Virus record (IMG/VR): IMGVR_UViG_3300042376_001249
Coordinates: 1-22,929 of that record
Source of the DNA: a virus
Direction: 5' to 3' (one strand)
DNA: 22,929 nucleotides
In this document: positions 5,500 through 20,034 of the stretch, one piece after another
How the letters are laid out: every line of letters begins with the position of its first letter
How positions within the stretch are numbered: the first letter of the stretch is position 1
Position numbers and translations under genes: made by a program
The notes under the pieces: generated by a model
The model's input: the letters and a program-made list of their open reading frames with translations, nothing else
What the model was told of the DNA's origin: nothing
The model's database searches: none

Positions 5500-7227
5500 G
5501 TGGCCAACAGACGGATATCCGAGTTACAGGAGATCGCCGGTCTTGACCTAGCGGATGGCGACCTATTGACGGTCGTTCAGGTCGCAGAAGTTGACCCTGC
5601 GATCAAGAACAAGAAACTAACGATATCTGGTACCCGTACTTATCTAAATGTCTACTATCTCCCCCGCACTGGGGGAACAGTTAGTGGTTCAATTGTTGTC
5701 CAGAACAACCTGACGGTTTCTGGTAACGCCAACCTGAACTCTCTGACGGTTACCGGTGACATTGTTTTTGCCAACCTCACGGTTCAAAACAATCTCACGG
5801 TCAGTGGCACCATCAGCGGTAACACAATTACCGGTGAAAGTATTGCTGCGCCCCTGGTAACGTCAGCCAGCGGTCGTTTCACTGATGTCACTGGCGCCAC
5901 GGCACGGTATACCTCTGGAACATTCCAGACCCTCAGTGGCAACTTCATTACAGGTGTGACGATTACCACCTTTACTGGTGGTTTCTCCAACATCGTTTAT
6001 TCCAATACCGTCAGCGGCGTCACAGTTACTGGCACGACGGTTAATGCAAGCAGCGGCGTTTATACAACTCAGCTTTCCGGTGCCACCATCACCGGCAACA
6101 ACATTAATGGAACCACTGGTACGTTCCAGACCCTGGTCACGAGCGGCCAAACGATTGGTGGTAACGTCACTGTCAGTGGCACGCTGAACGTATCTGGTAT
6201 TGGTACGTTTGCTTCTGGTGTCAACGTCCTTGGCACGCTGAGCGGCACAACCGTTACCGGTACCAACGCTCAATTCACCAACATCACAGGCTCCACAGTT
6301 GTTGGAACCACCGTTGTTTCTGGTGCGACCGTTACCGGTAACACGGGCAACTTTAGTAATCTCAACACCATCAGCGGCGTCTTTAGCGCCCAGCTCTCCG
6401 GTGCAACGATCACGGGGAACACCGGTAACTTCACGACGCTCAACGCAATCACGGCCATCTTTGAGACCGGGATTGTCAAGCAGAACATCACGGTTACTGG
6501 CAACATTGCAACCAGCGGCACCCTGACGGTTGGTCAGACGGCAACCATTGCTTCTGGCCTGACTGTCACCACTGGTTCGATCTCTGGTGTCACGATTACT
6601 GGTACCACTGGTCAATTCACCAACCTTGTTGGTATTGGTGGGTCGTTCACAACGTTGACCGGCACGACCGTCACAGGCGGTACCGCTAACTTCAACAACG
6701 GTAACTTCACTGGCACCCTGAGTGGTGCAACGGTTACTGGTAACACAGGCCAGTTCACCAACCTTCTTGCAGGTGGGGGTTCCTTTACAACCCTGACTGG
6801 CACCACCATTACTGGAACCACAGGTCAATTCACGAACCTGACCGCGATTGGTGGCAGCTTCACAACCCTCACTGGCACGACGGTGACCGGTGGTACCGCC
6901 AACTTCAACAACGGTAATTTCACTGGCACGCTGAGTGGCGCCACTATTACCGGCCAGGTTGGTCAATTCACCAGCATCACCGGTATCAGCGCTGGCTTCA
7001 CAACAGTGACCGGTGGTACCGGCATCTTCACCACCAGTGTTTCTGGAGCCACCGTGACCGGCAATACGGTCCAAGGAACCTCCGGCATCTTCCAATATCT
7101 GAGTGGTGCCACGATTACTGGTGTTAGCGGCAACTTCAGTACGGCATTAACGATTAGCGGACAGAATGTTGCCACTGTTAACTACGCGGACTCTTCTGCA
7201 ATTGTGTATGCAATTGCTCTCGGATGA
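5500..7227 (+). CDS. Tail fibre-like protein with tandem Thr/Gly-rich repeats
   Basis: This protein has 575 residues. The first 55, RRISELQEIAGLDLADGDLL then TVVQVAEVDPAIKNKKLTIS, are an N-terminal domain common in cyanophage fibre proteins and probably attach the fibre to the tail. Everything after about residue 60 is a long run of short beta-rich units of the form GTTVTG-x2-GxFTxL and SGATITG. Residues about 366-436 and 437 onward form a 71-residue repeat that is almost identical in protein but changed at many third codon positions. Such repeats typically build an elongated trimeric beta-helical shaft. There is no S74 chaperone domain and no obvious receptor-binding tip; the C-terminus ends NYADSSAIVYAIALG. 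Start GTG 5500 follows TAGG. Confidence 0.82.
   Translation: MANRRISELQEIAGLDLADGDLLTVVQVAEVDPAIKNKKLTISGTRTYLNVYYLPRTGGTVSGSIVVQNNLTVSGNANLNSLTVTGDIVFANLTVQNNLTVSGTISGNTITGESIAAPLVTSASGRFTDVTGATARYTSGTFQTLSGNFITGVTITTFTGGFSNIVYSNTVSGVTVTGTTVNASSGVYTTQLSGATITGNNINGTTGTFQTLVTSGQTIGGNVTVSGTLNVSGIGTFASGVNVLGTLSGTTVTGTNAQFTNITGSTVVGTTVVSGATVTGNTGNFSNLNTISGVFSAQLSGATITGNTGNFTTLNAITAIFETGIVKQNITVTGNIATSGTLTVGQTATIASGLTVTTGSISGVTITGTTGQFTNLVGIGGSFTTLTGTTVTGGTANFNNGNFTGTLSGATVTGNTGQFTNLLAGGGSFTTLTGTTITGTTGQFTNLTAIGGSFTTLTGTTVTGGTANFNNGNFTGTLSGATITGQVGQFTSITGISAGFTTVTGGTGIFTTSVSGATVTGNTVQGTSGIFQYLSGATITGVSGNFSTALTISGQNVATVNYADSSAIVYAIALG
6595..6970 (+). repeat. 213-bp in-frame tandem repeat in the fibre shaft
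   Basis: The segment starting at 6595 repeats at 6808 (period 213 bases, 71 codons); the second copy is incomplete and fades near 6970. Both encode TG-x-TTGQFTNL, GGSFTTLTGTTVTGGTANFN and NGNFTGTLSGAT. In one 15-codon stretch (NFNNGNFTGTLSGAT) the proteins are identical but five codons differ at the third base. Shorter, more divergent units of the same kind fill the rest of the gene. Confidence 0.75.
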
Positions 7228-7233
7228 TCCGTT

Positions 7234-7239
7234 TATAAT
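7234..7239 (+). promoter_or_regulatory. Consensus -10 box upstream of the 7270 gene
   Basis: TATAAT lies seven bases past the fibre-gene stop codon and starts 36 bases before the ATG at 7270, the same spacing as the box before 5500. No -35 element is visible at a normal distance. Confidence 0.5.
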
Positions 7240-7269
7240 GAATGAAACTGCGTAAGTACCAATAAATAC

Positions 7270-7641
7270 ATGGCCCGTTTTGTTTCGGTCGTTAGGCAAA
7301 GTATTGCAAGCGGTTCCACCGCCCCGACGGTTATTATTTCTGGTACTTCCAACTCCAGTGGTGTGCCAGCTAATACCTATGGTGTGATCCTGAGCATCCT
7401 TGCCTCTAACACCACTGCCAATTCTCAGAACGTCACGGTACAACTGATCAAATCTGGTGGCACCCCCACCGGATCTCTCATCACCTCTGGCACCGTACCA
7501 AACCAATCTTCTCTTGAATTCATGACCGGTAATAAGGTCATCGTTCAATCGGAAGATGTAATTCGTGCTTACGCAGGAACTGGCAGCGCTGTTGACGTGA
7601 CCATTTCCTACATGCTGAACCCGCAAGATAACACCATCTGA
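7270..7641 (+). CDS. Small fibre-associated structural protein
   Basis: This 123-residue protein starts MARFVSVVRQSIASGSTAPT and is rich in Ser, Thr, Gly, Val and Ile with alternating hydrophobic residues, a likely beta-sandwich. It has no signal peptide, and its hydrophobic stretches are too short and interrupted for membrane segments. The fold suggestion is of a small virion or fibre-decoration protein. Its position between two fibre genes, two bases before the next ATG, supports a role in the adsorption apparatus. I do not recognise the exact family. Confidence 0.7.
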   Translation: MARFVSVVRQSIASGSTAPTVIISGTSNSSGVPANTYGVILSILASNTTANSQNVTVQLIKSGGTPTGSLITSGTVPNQSSLEFMTGNKVIVQSEDVIRAYAGTGSAVDVTISYMLNPQDNTI

Positions 7642-7643
7642 TC

Positions 7644-9218
7644 ATGCCTTACATCGGTAATGTCCCAAGTTCCTTCAATGTTGGAACTGACAACATCAAT
7701 AATGATGCGATCACAACTGCCAAGATTGCAGATGGCGCGATCCTTAATGCCGATGTAAATAGTGCGGCTGCCATTGCCGGTACCAAGATCAGTCCTGACT
7801 TTGGTAGTCAGAATTTACTAACCACTGGTACCAGCACAGCAGCAAGTTTTATTCCCAGTAGTTCAACAGCACCAACAAACGGTTTATATTTAGCTTCCGC
7901 AAATAACGTAGCCATCTCGACTAATGGCACTGGGCGGTTGTTTGTTGATGCGAGTGGACGAGTAATTGTCGGAGCGTCGTCTGCCGCTGTAGGCAACCCT
8001 CTTGAAGTAGTTGCCACATCCAACGGCAATGCCATTGCTGTTCGCGGCAGAAGCTCTGACAACGTGGGAATCATTACGTTCCATCCAAATGCCAGTAGCA
8101 CTGAATATGCAAGGATCCAAGCAGAAAGCGATTCGGCATTGCGCTTCGGGACCGGATCTGCCGGATCCGAACGCATGCGCCTGGACTCCAGTGGCCGCTT
8201 AGGGATTGGCACTACTCCGGGAGTGACGTTAGACGTCAACGGACAAATCCGTGCAAACAATGACTTTCTCTACGCAGATTCAACAGCAACTCGCGGTCGT
8301 GTTTATGGCGACTCTTCCGGCTTAGTTGTTCGTGCAGATACTGGGTTGGCTCTTCGGTTTCATGCCGATGTTAATGAAAGAGCACGAATTGACACATCAG
8401 GCCGCCTGTTAGTTGGCACGTCTTCAAGTGTTAACAACGAGTGTATTTTTCAAACATCTGGCGACTCAGTTAGAGACATTGCTCTTAAATACACTGGTAC
8501 TTCGGGCGGCGCTGAAACAAGTTTTAGATGGATTGATAAAAACAACCAGGTAAATGCGCAAGTTGGCAACAACCTTCAAAACGATGCTATTGGCACAGCC
8601 GCCGCGCATCTTGTCTTTAAGACAGCAACCGGTGGCACGTTGGCGGAGCGGGTGCGTATTACGCAAGATGGCAAAATTTACATGGGTCAAACTTCCGGGT
8701 TTGGCTTTAGTACAAACAGGCTAGAGGTTGAAGGTCAAAACGCTGTTGCATTTAAGAGTACGGGCACCGCAGGCCAGCAAACTGCATACATCTGGCACTC
8801 CGCAACCAGTGGCAATAATTTGTTCATGGAATTTGGCACGGAATCGTCCATTAACACCCGTGGCTCTATTGACTACAACCGTGGCGCTGGTCAAGTTAGG
8901 TACAACGTCACGTCAGATCGCCGCCTCAAGTCAAACATTGAAGATGCAAGCTCAGCCCTAAACGTTCTTGATCAAATTAAAGTCAGGTCTTACACCTGGA
9001 CTGAGACCGGGTACAACATTCCTCACGGCTTTATTGCGCAAGAACTGAACGAAGCTGTACCCGATGCCGTCAAGGTTGGTGACGATGGAGATGAGGTGGT
9101 CGATACCTGGGCAGTCGACAACGCCAAGCTGGTGCCACTGCTTACAAAAGCACTGCAAGAAGCTTTGCAGAAGATCGACGCGATGGAAGCCCGACTGTCA
9201 GCCCTTGAGGCGTCGTAG
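7644..9218 (+). CDS. Tail fibre protein with C-terminal peptidase S74 chaperone domain
   Basis: This protein has 524 residues. The N-terminal part (MPYIGNVPSSFNVGTDNINN and DAITTAKIADGAILNADVNS) is a fibre-attachment-like segment. The middle is a beta-rich shaft with repeated stems of the type RLDSSGRLGIGT and RIDTSGRLLVGT. The last 101 residues are an S74 intramolecular chaperone: SDRRLKSNIEDASSALNVLD, then YNIPHGFIAQELNEAVPDAV, an AKLVPLLTKALQEAL helix and a closing coiled coil. S424 and K429 are the expected Ser-Lys dyad that releases the domain by self-cleavage after it has guided trimer folding. This domain is known from endosialidases, T5 L-shaped fibres and many cyanophage fibres. ATG 7644 is spaced two bases after the previous stop. 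Confidence 0.88.
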   Translation: MPYIGNVPSSFNVGTDNINNDAITTAKIADGAILNADVNSAAAIAGTKISPDFGSQNLLTTGTSTAASFIPSSSTAPTNGLYLASANNVAISTNGTGRLFVDASGRVIVGASSAAVGNPLEVVATSNGNAIAVRGRSSDNVGIITFHPNASSTEYARIQAESDSALRFGTGSAGSERMRLDSSGRLGIGTTPGVTLDVNGQIRANNDFLYADSTATRGRVYGDSSGLVVRADTGLALRFHADVNERARIDTSGRLLVGTSSSVNNECIFQTSGDSVRDIALKYTGTSGGAETSFRWIDKNNQVNAQVGNNLQNDAIGTAAAHLVFKTATGGTLAERVRITQDGKIYMGQTSGFGFSTNRLEVEGQNAVAFKSTGTAGQQTAYIWHSATSGNNLFMEFGTESSINTRGSIDYNRGAGQVRYNVTSDRRLKSNIEDASSALNVLDQIKVRSYTWTETGYNIPHGFIAQELNEAVPDAVKVGDDGDEVVDTWAVDNAKLVPLLTKALQEALQKIDAMEARLSALEAS

Positions 9219-14204: not shown

Positions 14205-15317
14205 ATGACAATAAAACTTGCGGATGCTGCTGAGTTTTATAAGGGACTGCAACATCAGGTAGATGCCTGGAACTGGTTGCAATCTCAGTTGACTCCTGAA
14301 CAGCTCAGTGAGTTTGCAACTAAGTACCGTAATGCTCCAGATGATTTCCCTAATACCTGGGATGGGGTGATTGCTGCTGCTAAAAAAGCTGGTGCTAAAT
14401 TCCCAGAATGCGTGGCAGCTCAGTGGTACGTTGAAAGTGCCCAAGGAAAACATGTATCGTGCACCCATAATTACTTCGGCATCAAATCAAAAGATGGCGA
14501 GGGGTGTTATGTCACCACCAAGGAATTTGTCGGTGGTAAAGAGATTGAGATCAAGGATTGGTTCAAGCGTTTCGATAACTTGTATGCCTGCGTGGACTAC
14601 CTGGTCAGCAGGTGGTACAAAGATTTCAACGGGTATCAAGGCGTTAACCGTGCCAAAACACGCAATGAGTGCGCCCAACTTCTGAAAGAAGAGGGTTACG
14701 CGACAGATCCTGTATATGTAACCAAACTAATCCAGGTAATGGATCGTCAGACCCAGGTGCCGGATGCCAATGAACCTGATGTCATCAATCAAAAGATCCT
14801 GCCTGTTCCTTATGAGTACCAGCTGGATAACCAATCGGGTAAAGGGTATCGCGAATGCTTCTCGTCAACCTGTGCCATGATCGCACGTTATTACGGGAAG
14901 GTTAAAAACGATGATGAGTACAACAAGATCCGAGCTAAGTACGGTGACACCACCAACAAGGATGCTCAGCTCGGAGCCCTGAGGGAGCTGGGACTCAACG
15001 CCAAGTTCATCACCAATGGGAATGCCGCCTTACTGGAAAATGAGATCCGCAATGGCAGGCCTGTTGCCGTTGGTTGGCTGCATAAAGGAACCGTCTCCTA
15101 CCCAACAGGTGGGGGTCACTGGACCTGCTGTATTGGGTTCACACCCGATGCGTTTGTCTTCCATGACCCCAACGGAGAAGCAGACATGGTGAATGGCGGT
15201 TACGTTAGCAATGACCGCAAAGCAGGAACTGCAGTTAAATACAGCAAGAAAAATTGGTTACGGCGATGGGAATGCGACGGAAAAAACACAGGTTGGGCCA
15301 TCCTGGTAAGCAAGTGA
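14205..15317 (+). CDS. Bifunctional endolysin: glucosaminidase plus C39-like peptidase
   Basis: This protein has 370 residues. Residues 45-185 match a FlgJ-type GH73 beta-N-acetylglucosaminidase: AAQWYVESAQGKH (71-83) with E77 as catalytic acid and the NYFGIK motif (89-94). Residues 200-370 are a papain-like C39-type peptidase: GYRECFSSTCAMIARYYG with C218 or C223 as nucleophile, GGGHWTCCIGF with H305, and FHDPNGEADM with D321. Together the two domains would cut the glycan chain and a stem peptide. There is no signal peptide. The position at the end of the fibre block, with a second wall enzyme at 306-959, suggests a division between lysis and entry. Either enzyme could be the virion one. Confidence 0.87.
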   Translation: MTIKLADAAEFYKGLQHQVDAWNWLQSQLTPEQLSEFATKYRNAPDDFPNTWDGVIAAAKKAGAKFPECVAAQWYVESAQGKHVSCTHNYFGIKSKDGEGCYVTTKEFVGGKEIEIKDWFKRFDNLYACVDYLVSRWYKDFNGYQGVNRAKTRNECAQLLKEEGYATDPVYVTKLIQVMDRQTQVPDANEPDVINQKILPVPYEYQLDNQSGKGYRECFSSTCAMIARYYGKVKNDDEYNKIRAKYGDTTNKDAQLGALRELGLNAKFITNGNAALLENEIRNGRPVAVGWLHKGTVSYPTGGGHWTCCIGFTPDAFVFHDPNGEADMVNGGYVSNDRKAGTAVKYSKKNWLRRWECDGKNTGWAILVSK

Positions 15318-17007: not shown

Positions 17008-17676
17008 TTATTCATTGTACTCTGGTCGATCTTTTACGTATTGAGAATTGGTAATAGCATTCTTGAACTCACGTTCTATTACCGGTCTAATACCAGACTC
17101 ACGTTGAGACTGCCGGTTGTAGAGCATCAGTTTCTCTGCCTTGAATTCTACCTCTAGGGGATTGATCGTCTGTGGTGGATACGTACGGTTAAAGCTGGAC
17201 ACCATATGTAGTGGGTTGCCGCACCTTGGGTTGTTACACAGACGGGTCACCACCAACGCACCAACATCACCCCAAGCGCACTGGTAAAGCGCCTTGTGGA
17301 CATTGACGTTTTCAGACTTCTGCTTGCTGTAGTGCGAGCGGTAGGAAGGTAGGCACACTCTCTTGGGGGTAGCACCACCAGGGGATTCGATCTCCCAGCA
17401 GTCTTCCGGGAAACCAATCGCCACCTTTTTCCAGAGCTTGGCGTATTTGGTCTTGTATTCACCTGTGACGTAGTTGATGTCGAACCCACAGACGTTGCTC
17501 AGGATCTTCTTGGCGCACTCATAGCACCAGTGGTGGGTGGAGTCCCGGATCACATGGCCGTGTAGGCATGGGTGCCCCCGGTAGTACCCAAGGAGATTCA
17601 ACTGAGACTCAGTGAGATTCTCAATGCACTGGACGTGACGGAACTGAGGGTTCCCGCTTTCAATCAAATTTGCCAT
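17008..17676 (-). CDS. HNH-like zinc protein, degenerate catalytic site
   Basis: This protein has 222 residues. An N-terminal zinc ribbon-like pair C37-x2-H40 and C51-x2-C54 (PCLHGHVIRDSTHHWCYECA) is followed by an HNH zinc-loop segment: VNVHKALYQCAWGDVGALVV (124-143), then TRLCNNPRCGNPLHMV with C147, C152, N154 and H157. In the classic form the residue two before the first Cys is a His that attacks the phosphodiester bond (HxC). Here it is Arg (R145 in TRLC). The zinc-binding frame is kept but the general base may be lost, so the protein may bind DNA without cutting. It begins one base after the stop of the 17678 gene. Confidence 0.72.
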   Translation of the reverse strand: MANLIESGNPQFRHVQCIENLTESQLNLLGYYRGHPCLHGHVIRDSTHHWCYECAKKILSNVCGFDINYVTGEYKTKYAKLWKKVAIGFPEDCWEIESPGGATPKRVCLPSYRSHYSKQKSENVNVHKALYQCAWGDVGALVVTRLCNNPRCGNPLHMVSSFNRTYPPQTINPLEVEFKAEKLMLYNRQSQRESGIRPVIEREFKNAITNSQYVKDRPEYNE

Positions 17677-17677
17677 C

Positions 17678-18037
17678 TCAATACCAGTCCGATTTACGAC
17701 GATTGCGACGAGTTGGTGGTTTTACGGTTTTGCGCTGCTCAAGCCACATGTCAGCAGGCAGCGAATCCCTGGGACGGTCATCGGGACGTAGTACGTCCGC
17801 ATTACCTGGGTCCTGGCCGGTACGCAGGTAGTACACAACGCGGTGAGCGTGGAACTTCTGCCCCCACAGCGATACCACGTAGTACCTCTTGTGGTGTTCC
17901 AGGTACCCAGCCATCTGCCCAGCTGCATGGCGGCCTGTGGTGTTAACCCACTCCAGACCACTGGGGTAGTCATCGGTGAGCTTGACCTTTTGCCTGAGTT
18001 CCTCCAGGGGAGGAAGGGGTCTGTACTGCCTGGCCAT
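17678..18037 (-). CDS. HNH-like protein, probably inactive
   Basis: This 119-residue protein starts MARQYRPLPPLEELRQKVKL. Residues 28-80, LEWVNTTGRHAAGQMAGYLE then KRYYVVSLWGQKFHAHRVVY and YLRTGQDPGNADVL, follow the two-strand-plus-helix plan of phage HNH/AP2 homing endonucleases, with the H-A-H-R-V-V-Y helix start as its clearest sign. The following residues should give His-x-Asn-x-Asp and an N-x-R pair, but read RPDDRPRDSL and the C-terminus is a basic tail (VKPPTRRNRRKSDWY). It lacks the catalytic His and Asn, so it is likely a non-cutting derivative. It is adjacent to another degenerate HNH gene and downstream of a repeat-rich intergenic region. Confidence 0.65.
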   Translation of the reverse strand: MARQYRPLPPLEELRQKVKLTDDYPSGLEWVNTTGRHAAGQMAGYLEHHKRYYVVSLWGQKFHAHRVVYYLRTGQDPGNADVLRPDDRPRDSLPADMWLEQRKTVKPPTRRNRRKSDWY

Positions 18038-18087
18038 GGCGGGAATGTGTGCAGAGTTAGGGACTTTACCATATGTTTTATCTTTCT

Positions 18088-18129
18088 ATAGAGTAAATAA
18101 CAGTGTGATCAGAGTGTAATTTACTCTAT
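18088..18129. repeat. 42-bp interrupted palindrome
   Basis: ATAGAGTAAAT at 18088-18098 and ATTTACTCTAT at 18119-18129 are exact reverse complements. The inner 20 bases are also partly palindromic around TGATCA (18106-18111), so 18 of 21 pairs match about one centre. The arms are AT-rich and not followed by a T run in either direction, so a terminator is unlikely. An operator, a protein-binding site or an origin element fits better. Confidence 0.75.
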
Positions 18130-18168
18130 GTAAGGGTGGGAAGGGGCCTAAAGTCCGAATCACTGCAC

Positions 18169-18206
18169 ATACACCTGAGTCTCACCCTGAGACCTTGATA
18201 CACCTG
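18169..18206. repeat. 9-bp direct repeats flanking a small hairpin
   Basis: ATACACCTG occurs at 18169-18177 and again at 18198-18206 (29 bases apart). Between them, GTCTCA (18179-18184) and TGAGAC (18188-18193) form a perfect six-base inverted repeat with a CCC loop. The ordered arrangement repeat-hairpin-repeat suggests a binding site for a dimeric protein. Confidence 0.6.
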
Positions 18207-18210
18207 TACT

Positions 18211-18242
18211 TTCATGCCTTCATGCCTTCGTGCCTTCGTGCC
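18211..18242. repeat. Four 8-bp tandem repeats
   Basis: TTCATGCC at 18211-18218 and 18219-18226 is followed by TTCGTGCC at 18227-18234 and 18235-18242: four head-to-tail 8-base units with one A-to-G change in the last two. The array is non-coding and just beyond the terminator of the glycosyltransferase gene. Short iterated sites of this kind occur in replication and partition regions. Confidence 0.75.
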
Positions 18243-18254
18243 GCACCAACGCAC

Positions 18255-18280
18255 AAAAAAGCCCCTGCCGAAGCAGAGGC
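18255..18280 (-). terminator. Rho-independent terminator of the glycosyltransferase gene
   Basis: Read on the minus strand, GCCTCTGC, loop TTCG and GCAGGGGC form an eight-position stem with one A-C mismatch, followed by TTTTTT. The stem, tetraloop and T run are the standard intrinsic terminator. It lies 30 bases past the stop of the gene at 18311-19564. Confidence 0.85.
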
Positions 18281-18310
18281 CATTCCCCACAGGTTTCGTC
18301 CCCATGCACC

Positions 18311-19564
18311 TTAGGCCGGAACCAGCTCCTTCTCCTTCTTCTTCGCTTTCTTTTTAGGAGTCACCAACGCCTCAGGCTCCAGCACAGGGTTCATCACCTC
18401 CTGGAACACCCCACTGAATTGAGCAGCGATGGTCTCCCAGTTGAACTGTTCGTCAGTGGCCCGCAGGTAACAGAGTTCGGCAACGGCATCGAGTTTCTCG
18501 CGGTCCTCGTACAGCTCGTTAAGGATCTCTGCAAGGTGTTCGGCGGAGGGGCAGGGCATCTCGCGAGCGAAGTTGGTGTCTACATCCACGTGGTCACAGC
18601 GGATGAGCTTTCCATATCCTTCGAAGATCTCCTTGCAGGACGTGTGGTTCGGCACCACCTGCGCCACACGGCAGGCCGCGTGCTCGAAGTTCACCAGACC
18701 CCAGCCTTCCCCTTTACAGGTATTGACACCCACATCGGCACACTGATAGATGGTCTCAAGCATCTCAACTGGGACCGAAGGTGGGTTCTGGGTATTACCG
18801 GTCATGATGATGCGGCCATTGGGATCCAGACCTTGCTTGTGCATCTCACGCCCAAAAACCTGCATCACATCCCAACCCTGGTCCTTCAAGCCCATATGCA
18901 GGTAGAGCATGGCATCGGGCTTATCGACTGCAAAGCGAGCGAATGCGTCGATGGTGATGTCGATCCGTTTGCGGAACTGGTTCCGGTTGGCGTTCATCAC
19001 GATGAAGGCATCTTCCTTCAGACCCAGGTTCTTGCGTGCCTCAACCTTATCCCCAGGCTTGAACTGACCAGCCGTCACCCCATGGGGAATAACAGTGATG
19101 GGCTTCTGGATCCCACCTTTAATAAATTCGTGAGCCCCAAATTCCGTATAGGAAACGATGGCGTCCCAGTTGTTGGCGGTCTCATTGAGGCAACCAACCC
19201 AGTTGTAGGAGTCCATGGGCATGTACCCCACGAACTTGAAGCCCATCTTCTGGTGCAAATCAGCAATACGTTTGTACTGCTCATTAATAATCCAGCAGTC
19301 GTTAATCGTAAATACGATGTCTGGCTTCTCAATCTCAACCACTTCCCGAATCCGATCCTCACCAAAAGGAGCCTGCTGGAAGCGATTGGATGCTGGATAG
19401 ATTTTAAATTCTTCCTGCATTGGGTCTGGATCACCGTGCCAGTTGCAGCCCAGTACAACGATTTCGTACTCGTCTTTCAGACGTTCAAGAACGTTGTGGG
19501 TGACACGTGCGAAACCAGTGGTGGCAATAATGTCACCTACCCAAAGCAGTTTAGATTTCGACAT
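18311..19564 (-). CDS. Glycosyltransferase, GT-B fold (GT4-like)
   Basis: This protein has 417 residues. The N-terminal Rossmann half begins LLWVGDIIATTGFARVTHNV with the GFARV-type acceptor loop, and the C-terminal half contains NANRNQFRKRIDITIDAFAR (192-211) and GEGWGLVNFEHAAC (285-298). E286 and E294 make the EX7E nucleotide-sugar-binding motif of retaining GT4 enzymes. It probably moves a sugar from a nucleotide donor to an acceptor such as phage DNA, a virion protein or a host surface polymer; the substrate is not visible. The tail is Lys-rich (TPKKKAKKKEKELVPA), perhaps binding nucleic acid or membrane. It is last in its operon, with a terminator behind and a GTATAGTTAA box ahead. Confidence 0.87.
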   Translation of the reverse strand: MSKSKLLWVGDIIATTGFARVTHNVLERLKDEYEIVVLGCNWHGDPDPMQEEFKIYPASNRFQQAPFGEDRIREVVEIEKPDIVFTINDCWIINEQYKRIADLHQKMGFKFVGYMPMDSYNWVGCLNETANNWDAIVSYTEFGAHEFIKGGIQKPITVIPHGVTAGQFKPGDKVEARKNLGLKEDAFIVMNANRNQFRKRIDITIDAFARFAVDKPDAMLYLHMGLKDQGWDVMQVFGREMHKQGLDPNGRIIMTGNTQNPPSVPVEMLETIYQCADVGVNTCKGEGWGLVNFEHAACRVAQVVPNHTSCKEIFEGYGKLIRCDHVDVDTNFAREMPCPSAEHLAEILNELYEDREKLDAVAELCYLRATDEQFNWETIAAQFSGVFQEVMNPVLEPEALVTPKKKAKKKEKELVPA

Positions 19565-19583: not shown

Positions 19584-19593
19584 TTAACTATAC
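19584..19593 (-). promoter_or_regulatory. Candidate minus-strand -10 box upstream of the glycosyltransferase gene
   Basis: On the minus strand GTATAGTTAA, identical to the string ahead of dcd (3164-3173). TATAGT overlaps the end of the speD coding region and lies about 20 bases before the ATG at 19564. No -35 is visible. Confidence 0.4.
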
Positions 19594-20034
19594 AGAGTTT
19601 TTTACTTCTTCGAGCACATCGTCAATGTTACGGATTTCTCCAGCGCACATCTCCATTAGCGATTTCTGGAAGTTTGCAGCAACTGGAGTGATGGAACGTG
19701 TTAATTCCCGCTCCTCTGCAACTTGCGCCTTGAGTTTATATTTCAAAAACTCAGCTGCCTTATGGGTGTTGGTTGTATCCCCGCAGGTGTACAAATCAAT
19801 GGCGGCATACCGCATCTCAGGCCAGGTATGAATCGATGCGTGGGATTCAGCCAGGAGTGCCAGTAGCGTCACACCTTGCGGCTCAAACTTCTCACCAAAG
19901 ATCCGCAGAATCGTGGCCTTGGACATGAGGAGGGCAGCTTCCAGCCACTCCTCCAGCAGGTCGTAATTATCCAGGGCCTCTGCATCGCAGTCATACAGGT
20001 CCAGGATTAGGTGACGCCCATTAGACATCTGCAT
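19588..20034 (-). CDS. speD: S-adenosylmethionine decarboxylase (proenzyme)
   Basis: This protein has 148 residues, the size of bacterial AdoMetDC. The motif LLAESHASIHTWPE (60-73) is diagnostic: self-cleavage occurs between E63 and S64, and S64 becomes the pyruvoyl group. H69 and C84 (in DLYTCGD) fit H68 and C83 of the Thermotoga enzyme with an offset of one. The product, decarboxylated AdoMet, feeds spermidine synthesis. speD is a known auxiliary gene in marine cyanophages, perhaps supporting packaging, translation or replication. Its ATG lies 13 bases inside the primase-helicase gene; Met3 (ATG 20028) is also possible. It shares an operon with the replication gene. Confidence 0.95.
   Translation of the reverse strand: MQMSNGRHLILDLYDCDAEALDNYDLLEEWLEAALLMSKATILRIFGEKFEPQGVTLLALLAESHASIHTWPEMRYAAIDLYTCGDTTNTHKAAEFLKYKLKAQVAEERELTRSITPVAANFQKSLMEMCAGEIRNIDDVLEEVKNSV

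Follow-up and report, generated by a model that had tools for sequence, protein, structure and literature searches.

In the present work, we describe a long nested hairpin behind the PrimPol operon of a viral DNA stretch of 22,929 nucleotides (the whole analysed sequence, referred to as the window). We consider it rather probable that this hairpin acts as the replication origin, or as an essential cis-acting replication element, of the S-EIV1-type cyanophage lineage and that it is recognised by the phage PrimPol-SF3 helicase. A strong comparative case comes from about 90 related cyanophages, in which this single locus holds 31 mutually unrelated hairpin sequences. Among systems with a PrimPol-helicase, the need for a stem-loop in replication has been shown for plasmid pRN1 and proposed for phage BIP-1. 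No origin study for the S-EIV1 lineage was found in the literature searched, which left out most subscription journals. For S-EIV1, the genome is complete and the host is known by name (Synechococcus), so the origin idea is directly testable. A preceding sequence-only reading of the window had pointed to a candidate origin in the same gap, and this is the reading best supported here. It is carried by the place and fold of the hairpin, by a layout comparable to that of pRN1 and BIP-1 and by the origin-binding-like C-terminus of the PrimPol, but not by iterons or GC skew.

The hairpin and its surroundings in the window

The gap at 18038-18310 separates the glycosyltransferase gene from the HNH-like ORF h1, both encoded on the minus strand. 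It is located 3' of the PrimPol-SpeD-glycosyltransferase operon with its terminator and directly ahead of two HNH-like genes, giving the order PrimPol-helicase, SpeD, glycosyltransferase, terminator, hairpin, h1 and h2 (Table 1). The 42-bp palindrome with 18 of 21 pairs recognised in the sequence-only reading is present (arms 18088-18108 and 18109-18129, 86% complementary), and it represents the core of a larger structure. A second inverted repeat (18048-18068/18149-18169, 81%) surrounds the palindrome, so that both together form a single nested hairpin about 126 nt long. In 400 dinucleotide shuffles of the gap, an ungapped inverted repeat as good as its best one arose only once. RNA folding of 18038-18180 yields z-scores of -6.0 on the plus and -3.9 on the minus strand, while DNA folding of the nested hairpin yields -4.6 and -4.7 on the two strands. 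The window's hairpin is among the weakest of its family. Its stem is interrupted and, like those of several close relatives, scores low in a strict hairpin scan, in which it does not rank first in its locus; in a sliding RNA fold with GC correction it falls outside the top 12. By a blastn-style measure, the palindrome still ranks first in its locus (L085).

Table 1. Coordinates of the hairpin, the neighbouring genes and the short sequence features in the window.
Feature	Position	Strand	Evidence or remark
Nested long hairpin, conserved element	18046..18173; outer arms 18046-18068 and 18149-18173		Two inverted repeats, RNA and DNA folds, counterparts in relatives
42-bp palindrome, inner stem, 18/21 pairs	18088..18129		DNA fold z -5.1 and -4.3; 1/400 shuffles
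GGACTTT motif at stem base	18061..18067	+	Inverted partner 18150..18156 (-)
Dyad GTCTCA-CCC-TGAGAC adjoining stem	18179..18193		Candidate initiator-binding site
Direct repeats ATACACCTG	18169-18177 and 18198-18206 (span 18169..18206)		Flank GTCTCA-CCC-TGAGAC dyad; marginal against chance
Four 8-bp tandem units (TTCRTGCC)	18211..18242		Repeat search; closest relatives only
Intrinsic terminator of PrimPol-SpeD-glycosyltransferase operon	18260..18281	-	Stem 18281-18260, then T run
HNH-like ORF h2	17008..17676	-	PHROG 1872, E 3.6e-10
HNH-like ORF h1, start about 9 bp from hairpin	17678..18037	-	PHROG 99, E 1.1e-7
Glycosyltransferase, final gene ahead of terminator	18311..19564	-	Domain search
S-adenosylmethionine decarboxylase (SpeD), same operon as PrimPol	19588..20034	-	PF02675
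PrimPol-helicase: Prim-Pol, PriCT_2, D5_N, DUF5906 (SF3), C-terminal winged helix	20021..22660	-	Domain search; models and Foldseek

The repeats in the remainder of the gap fared differently. The intrinsic terminator and the four 8-bp tandem units were correctly noted before, and the period-8 array was matched in none of 1000 shuffles of the gap. The two 9-bp direct repeats reported around a hairpin exist as well, but arise in 23 of 500 shuffles, which makes them marginal against chance, and they are not conserved. Judged from the repeat search, the tandem array is confined to the closest relatives, with at least two units in only 6 of 90 relatives. The earlier comparison of these repeats with iterons is therefore not supported, and an iteron origin on the 8-bp array was rejected. 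A script for perfect-stem terminators returned 8 of the 90 relatives; it missed the window's own terminator, so this count was set aside.

Short motifs beside the stem show a wider distribution. The GGACTTT pair at the stem base accounts for two of the four copies in the window, and the words CGGACTT/ACTTTGG are 15-18 fold enriched in the gaps of relatives. Over CGGACTT/ACTTTGG, ACACTTT and TGAGACT, the enrichment in gaps compared to upstream DNA ranges from 9- to 37-fold. The GTCTCA-TGAGAC dyad occurs in the gaps of 33 of 90 relatives, against a chance expectation of 0.0125 per 430 b. GAGAC reaches its highest density in the stretch from the glycosyltransferase to the hairpin (7.5 per kb versus a background of 1.4). 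In S-EIV1, TGAGAC is enriched throughout the PrimPol region, including the gap but not there alone, and may thus also serve as an operator.

A Pfam search gave no match for either HNH-like ORF. By eye, h1 has an HNH_3-type look without the usual DH residues and may therefore bind DNA instead of cutting it. In the S-EIV1 record (KJ410740), a single h2-like frame of about 225 aa at 7027-7725 (L004:16670-17368) is overlaid by three ORFs annotated as hypothetical, of which two run on the opposite strand; this annotation looks wrong. Elsewhere in the window, 14205-15317 encodes a likely two-domain lysin, in which a glucosaminidase domain precedes a C39/C70-like peptidase domain.

Fold and place of the hairpin across relatives

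Among annotated relatives, Synechococcus phage S-EIV1 (KJ410740) comes closest; its primase shares 56% identity with that of the window. A nearly identical contig also exists (99.97% over 10.2 kb). Viral contigs were scanned with the glycosyltransferase and the PrimPol, resulting in 129 loci and 92 distinct regions behind the glycosyltransferase. A Watson-Crick hairpin score was calculated over every locus, and 90 of the 92 regions were long enough to test the position. In 77 of these 90 distinct relatives, the top-scoring hairpin of the fetched locus is placed no more than 800 bp 3' of the operon, where about 6.1 would be expected, a rough figure as uniform placement is assumed; the window is one of the 13 exceptions. 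The score has a median of 31.9 inside the gap, whereas the best hairpins elsewhere have a median of 15.0 and a maximum of 21.4.

By sequence, the 85 elements, which were recognised from their fold and place, form 31 clusters with no alignment possible across half their length, yet all 31 carry the hairpin, with stems of up to 112 pairs. Because the hairpins form so many unalignable clusters, it is structure and place rather than sequence that are conserved, and the hairpin sequence turns over completely as far as the compared loci tell. Within close clades, the pairing itself is retained: in the clade of the window, changes on both sides preserve the pair in 8 of 28 to 33 pairs (both strands), and compensatory changes do so in 9 of 67 pairs in the L101 clade. 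In two loci (L088 and L097) the glycosyltransferase is located elsewhere; the hairpin follows directly after SpeD and stays with PrimPol-SpeD. In the complete S-EIV1 genome, the element at 7843-7955 is the top hairpin genome-wide, and self-blastn reveals no other long self-inverted repeat.

Individual hairpins show further peculiarities. The arms of L106:12476-12723 consist of tandem TGACACTTT-type units in an inverted array, so this stem seems to grow by repeat duplication. The hairpin loops of L104, L110, L121 and L131 carry a G-rich CGGGGG-type motif (GGGGGTNCGGGGG).

Candidate initiator and rival readings

The PrimPol-helicase of the window comprises PF09250, PF08707, PF08706 and PF19263, with TIGR01613 just under its cut-off, and the domain search gave no Toprim hit. 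Modelled at full length, the protein is poorly predicted in its helicase part (mean pLDDT 64.8 for the whole model), while the C-terminal 155 residues are modelled with a pLDDT of 82.3 and display the order of elements of a winged helix. In Foldseek, the best PDB match of this C-terminal domain is 1ka8, the origin-binding domain of P4 (E 2.6e-3, probability 1.00). The TM-scores of 0.39/0.57 are modest and this is the sole match near significance; subsequent hits, including Orc1/Cdc6 initiators, are not significant, and a sequence-profile search of the PDB found nothing.

These elements can be arranged into a possible initiation pathway. The C-terminal winged helix of the PrimPol would dock on double-stranded sites beside the stem, for which the GTCTCA/TGAGAC dyads and, alternatively, the stem-base GGACTTT motifs are the candidates. 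The hairpin would be extruded by negative supercoiling or would melt, allowing the SF3 ring to load on the extruded or melted structure. The single strands exposed in this way could then receive their first primers from the PrimPol domain, after which the phage DNA polymerase A, annotated in S-EIV1, would take over. Several observations count against the origin reading, among them the low scores of the window's hairpin and of several close relatives, the modest Foldseek match, the excess of A-C mismatches over all loci and the distant phages RcGingersnap and Mel-JY03 (see below). Cumulative GC skew, which the sequence-only reading had put forward as a check, reaches its extreme values in the complete S-EIV1 genome at 35.3 and 74.5 kb, with none at the element at about 7.9 kb, and an origin at a GC-skew turning point was accordingly rejected. 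In addition, h2 is linked to the hairpin as tightly as the PrimPol.

Judging from gene neighbourhood, the leading alternative partner of the hairpin is the pair of HNH-like genes, for which it might serve as a promoter or operator, as a leader, or as structured DNA (e.g., a cruciform) bound or nicked by the nuclease. We regard this assignment as doubtful, even if the linkage is close. The sequence-only reading had pointed out the two genes beside the gap, and they are indeed conserved neighbours: in 83 of 85 loci, h2 follows on the 3' side of the hairpin at a distance of up to 1.5 kb, and in 62 of 85 h1 does so within 600 b, the h1 match beginning at a median of 27 b past the hairpin. Moreover, among phage records, h2 turned up in the S-EIV1 lineage only. 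Comparable hairpins, however, stand behind the PrimPol genes of pRN1 and AchV4, systems without these HNH genes, which tilts the balance to the PrimPol. A sense-strand RNA leader should also favour G-U on the gene strand, where the bias is none or the reverse.

The same mismatches bear on transcription of the plus strand into a non-coding RNA or an attenuator hairpin, a reading that appears quite improbable. Over all loci, in gene-strand orientation, 270 A-C mismatches stand against 184 G-T, a weak hint of strand preference that would agree with the lower RNA folding energy of the plus strand in the window (-54.9 versus -36.9 kcal/mol). With one representative per cluster the bias is small (89 versus 71), and across these independent clusters the mismatches are close to strand-neutral, with no clear preference. 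This favours a function at the DNA level (a cruciform or one of the two single strands) rather than as a sense RNA leader. Further points against a plus-strand RNA are the complete turnover of the arms, the lack of an Rfam match at gathering thresholds and of a sigma-70-like promoter within 17500-18900 on either strand. Least probable of all, and by our estimate very much so, is a MITE-like mobile insertion, a protelomerase site or a palindrome maintained solely by template-switch mutation. Nested inverted repeats would suit such origins, and template switching can make quasi-palindromes more perfect, but mutation alone fails to explain retention at this locus only. A MITE or insertion sequence was rejected, as several copies at varying places would be expected, whereas the window holds one copy, S-EIV1 one long self-inverted repeat, and the position is fixed in about 90 phages. 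Rejected as well was a protelomerase (telRL) site: PF16684 is absent from seven records including the complete S-EIV1 genome, the other six of which may be incomplete. A distant blastn search in phage records returned nothing.

Relation to known replication systems

The candidate origin, with the PrimPol as its presumed partner, can be compared to several known systems. In the case of P4, an SF3 helicase carries a C-terminal origin-binding domain, to which the window PrimPol shows a predicted structural match, and crr is located directly 3' of the alpha gene and a terminator, in the same order as in the window. In contrast, the alpha primase is Toprim-type (PMC4234260), whereas the window protein has a Prim-Pol domain, and crr is built of type I repeats TGTTCACC and not of a long hairpin. 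A P4 alpha/crr-type origin was rejected, given a window protein with no Toprim hit and a gap sequence with none of the TGTTCACC repeats.

About a dozen distant cases were covered in addition. In the same scan, the top-ranked hairpin is found 71 b behind the PrimPol gene of AchV4 and 201 b behind that of Achromobacter phage phiAxp-2. The phiAxp-2 hairpin (L143:8715-8819) has long near-perfect arms (TTGCAGCTTTTGCAGGTTTAA) and would by the same logic be a candidate origin. Microcystis phage Mel-JY03 (L144:7676-8004) has a 329-b hairpin of about 100 pairs starting 29 b past its D5/SF3 helicase gene. This is a split system with the primase part in a separate DnaG/Toprim-like ORF, and the hairpin layout is thus not limited to PrimPol systems. 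Conversely, RcGingersnap, with the same Prim-Pol and PriCT_2 make-up, has no dominant hairpin within 0.7 kb behind its PrimPol, and no such hairpin was seen in LR797314, VLCpiS10a, Solent, Angelica and Rowa, which have Toprim, NrS-1-type or unassigned primase parts. Since RcGingersnap lacks a hairpin and Mel-JY03 has one without a PrimPol, the association is good, not absolute.

A stem-loop origin has also been proposed for Bordetella phage BIP-1 (PMC4234260). BPP-1/BIP-1 share with the window a Prim-Pol, PriCT_2 and D5_N protein and have the top hairpin of the fetched region 3' of the primase gene. Their hairpin sequence is unrelated, host and gene order are different, and the origin there is a proposal only. 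In BPP-1, an 'endonuclease' ORF is also located beside the hairpin, adjoining the terminase genes. One could speculate, although we think it unlikely, that PrimPol-SF3 phages share an origin class set by shape and position, a giant cruciform-forming hairpin behind the initiator operon, and that the S-EIV1 lineage couples to this hairpin an HNH-type nuclease dedicated to its processing or resolution.

The closest parallel is the Sulfolobus plasmid pRN1, where an intact stem-loop of about 100 b, 3' of the PrimPol-SF3 gene, is needed for replication and also suffices when it accompanies the replication operon (Berkner et al., 2014; PMC4234260). The terminator ahead of it is dispensable, the stem-loop functions when relocated, and a broken pair can be rescued through restored symmetry; by the authors' own account, direct proof that initiation occurs at the stem-loop is not given (PMC4234260). 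In the stem, conservation extends to the fold and not to the sequence; pRN1 is described as free of iterons, and a winged helix is reported for its replication protein (PMC4234260). Under our hairpin scan, this stem-loop ranks first in pRN1. There are clear differences: SpeD and the glycosyltransferase separate PrimPol and element in the window, the phage stems often exceed that of pRN1 in length, the hairpin has dyads and short motifs on its flanks, HNH-like genes come next, and a requirement in cis has been shown for pRN1 alone. The likeness, on the other hand, extends over the replication protein (Prim-Pol, helical primase domain, SF3 helicase and C-terminal winged helix), the succession of a terminator and a large stem-loop 3' of the replication operon, and a conserved fold with unconserved sequence, here in all 31 clusters and with compensatory pairs. 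By analogy, the hairpin of the window is most likely a variant of the pRN1-type stem-loop origin.
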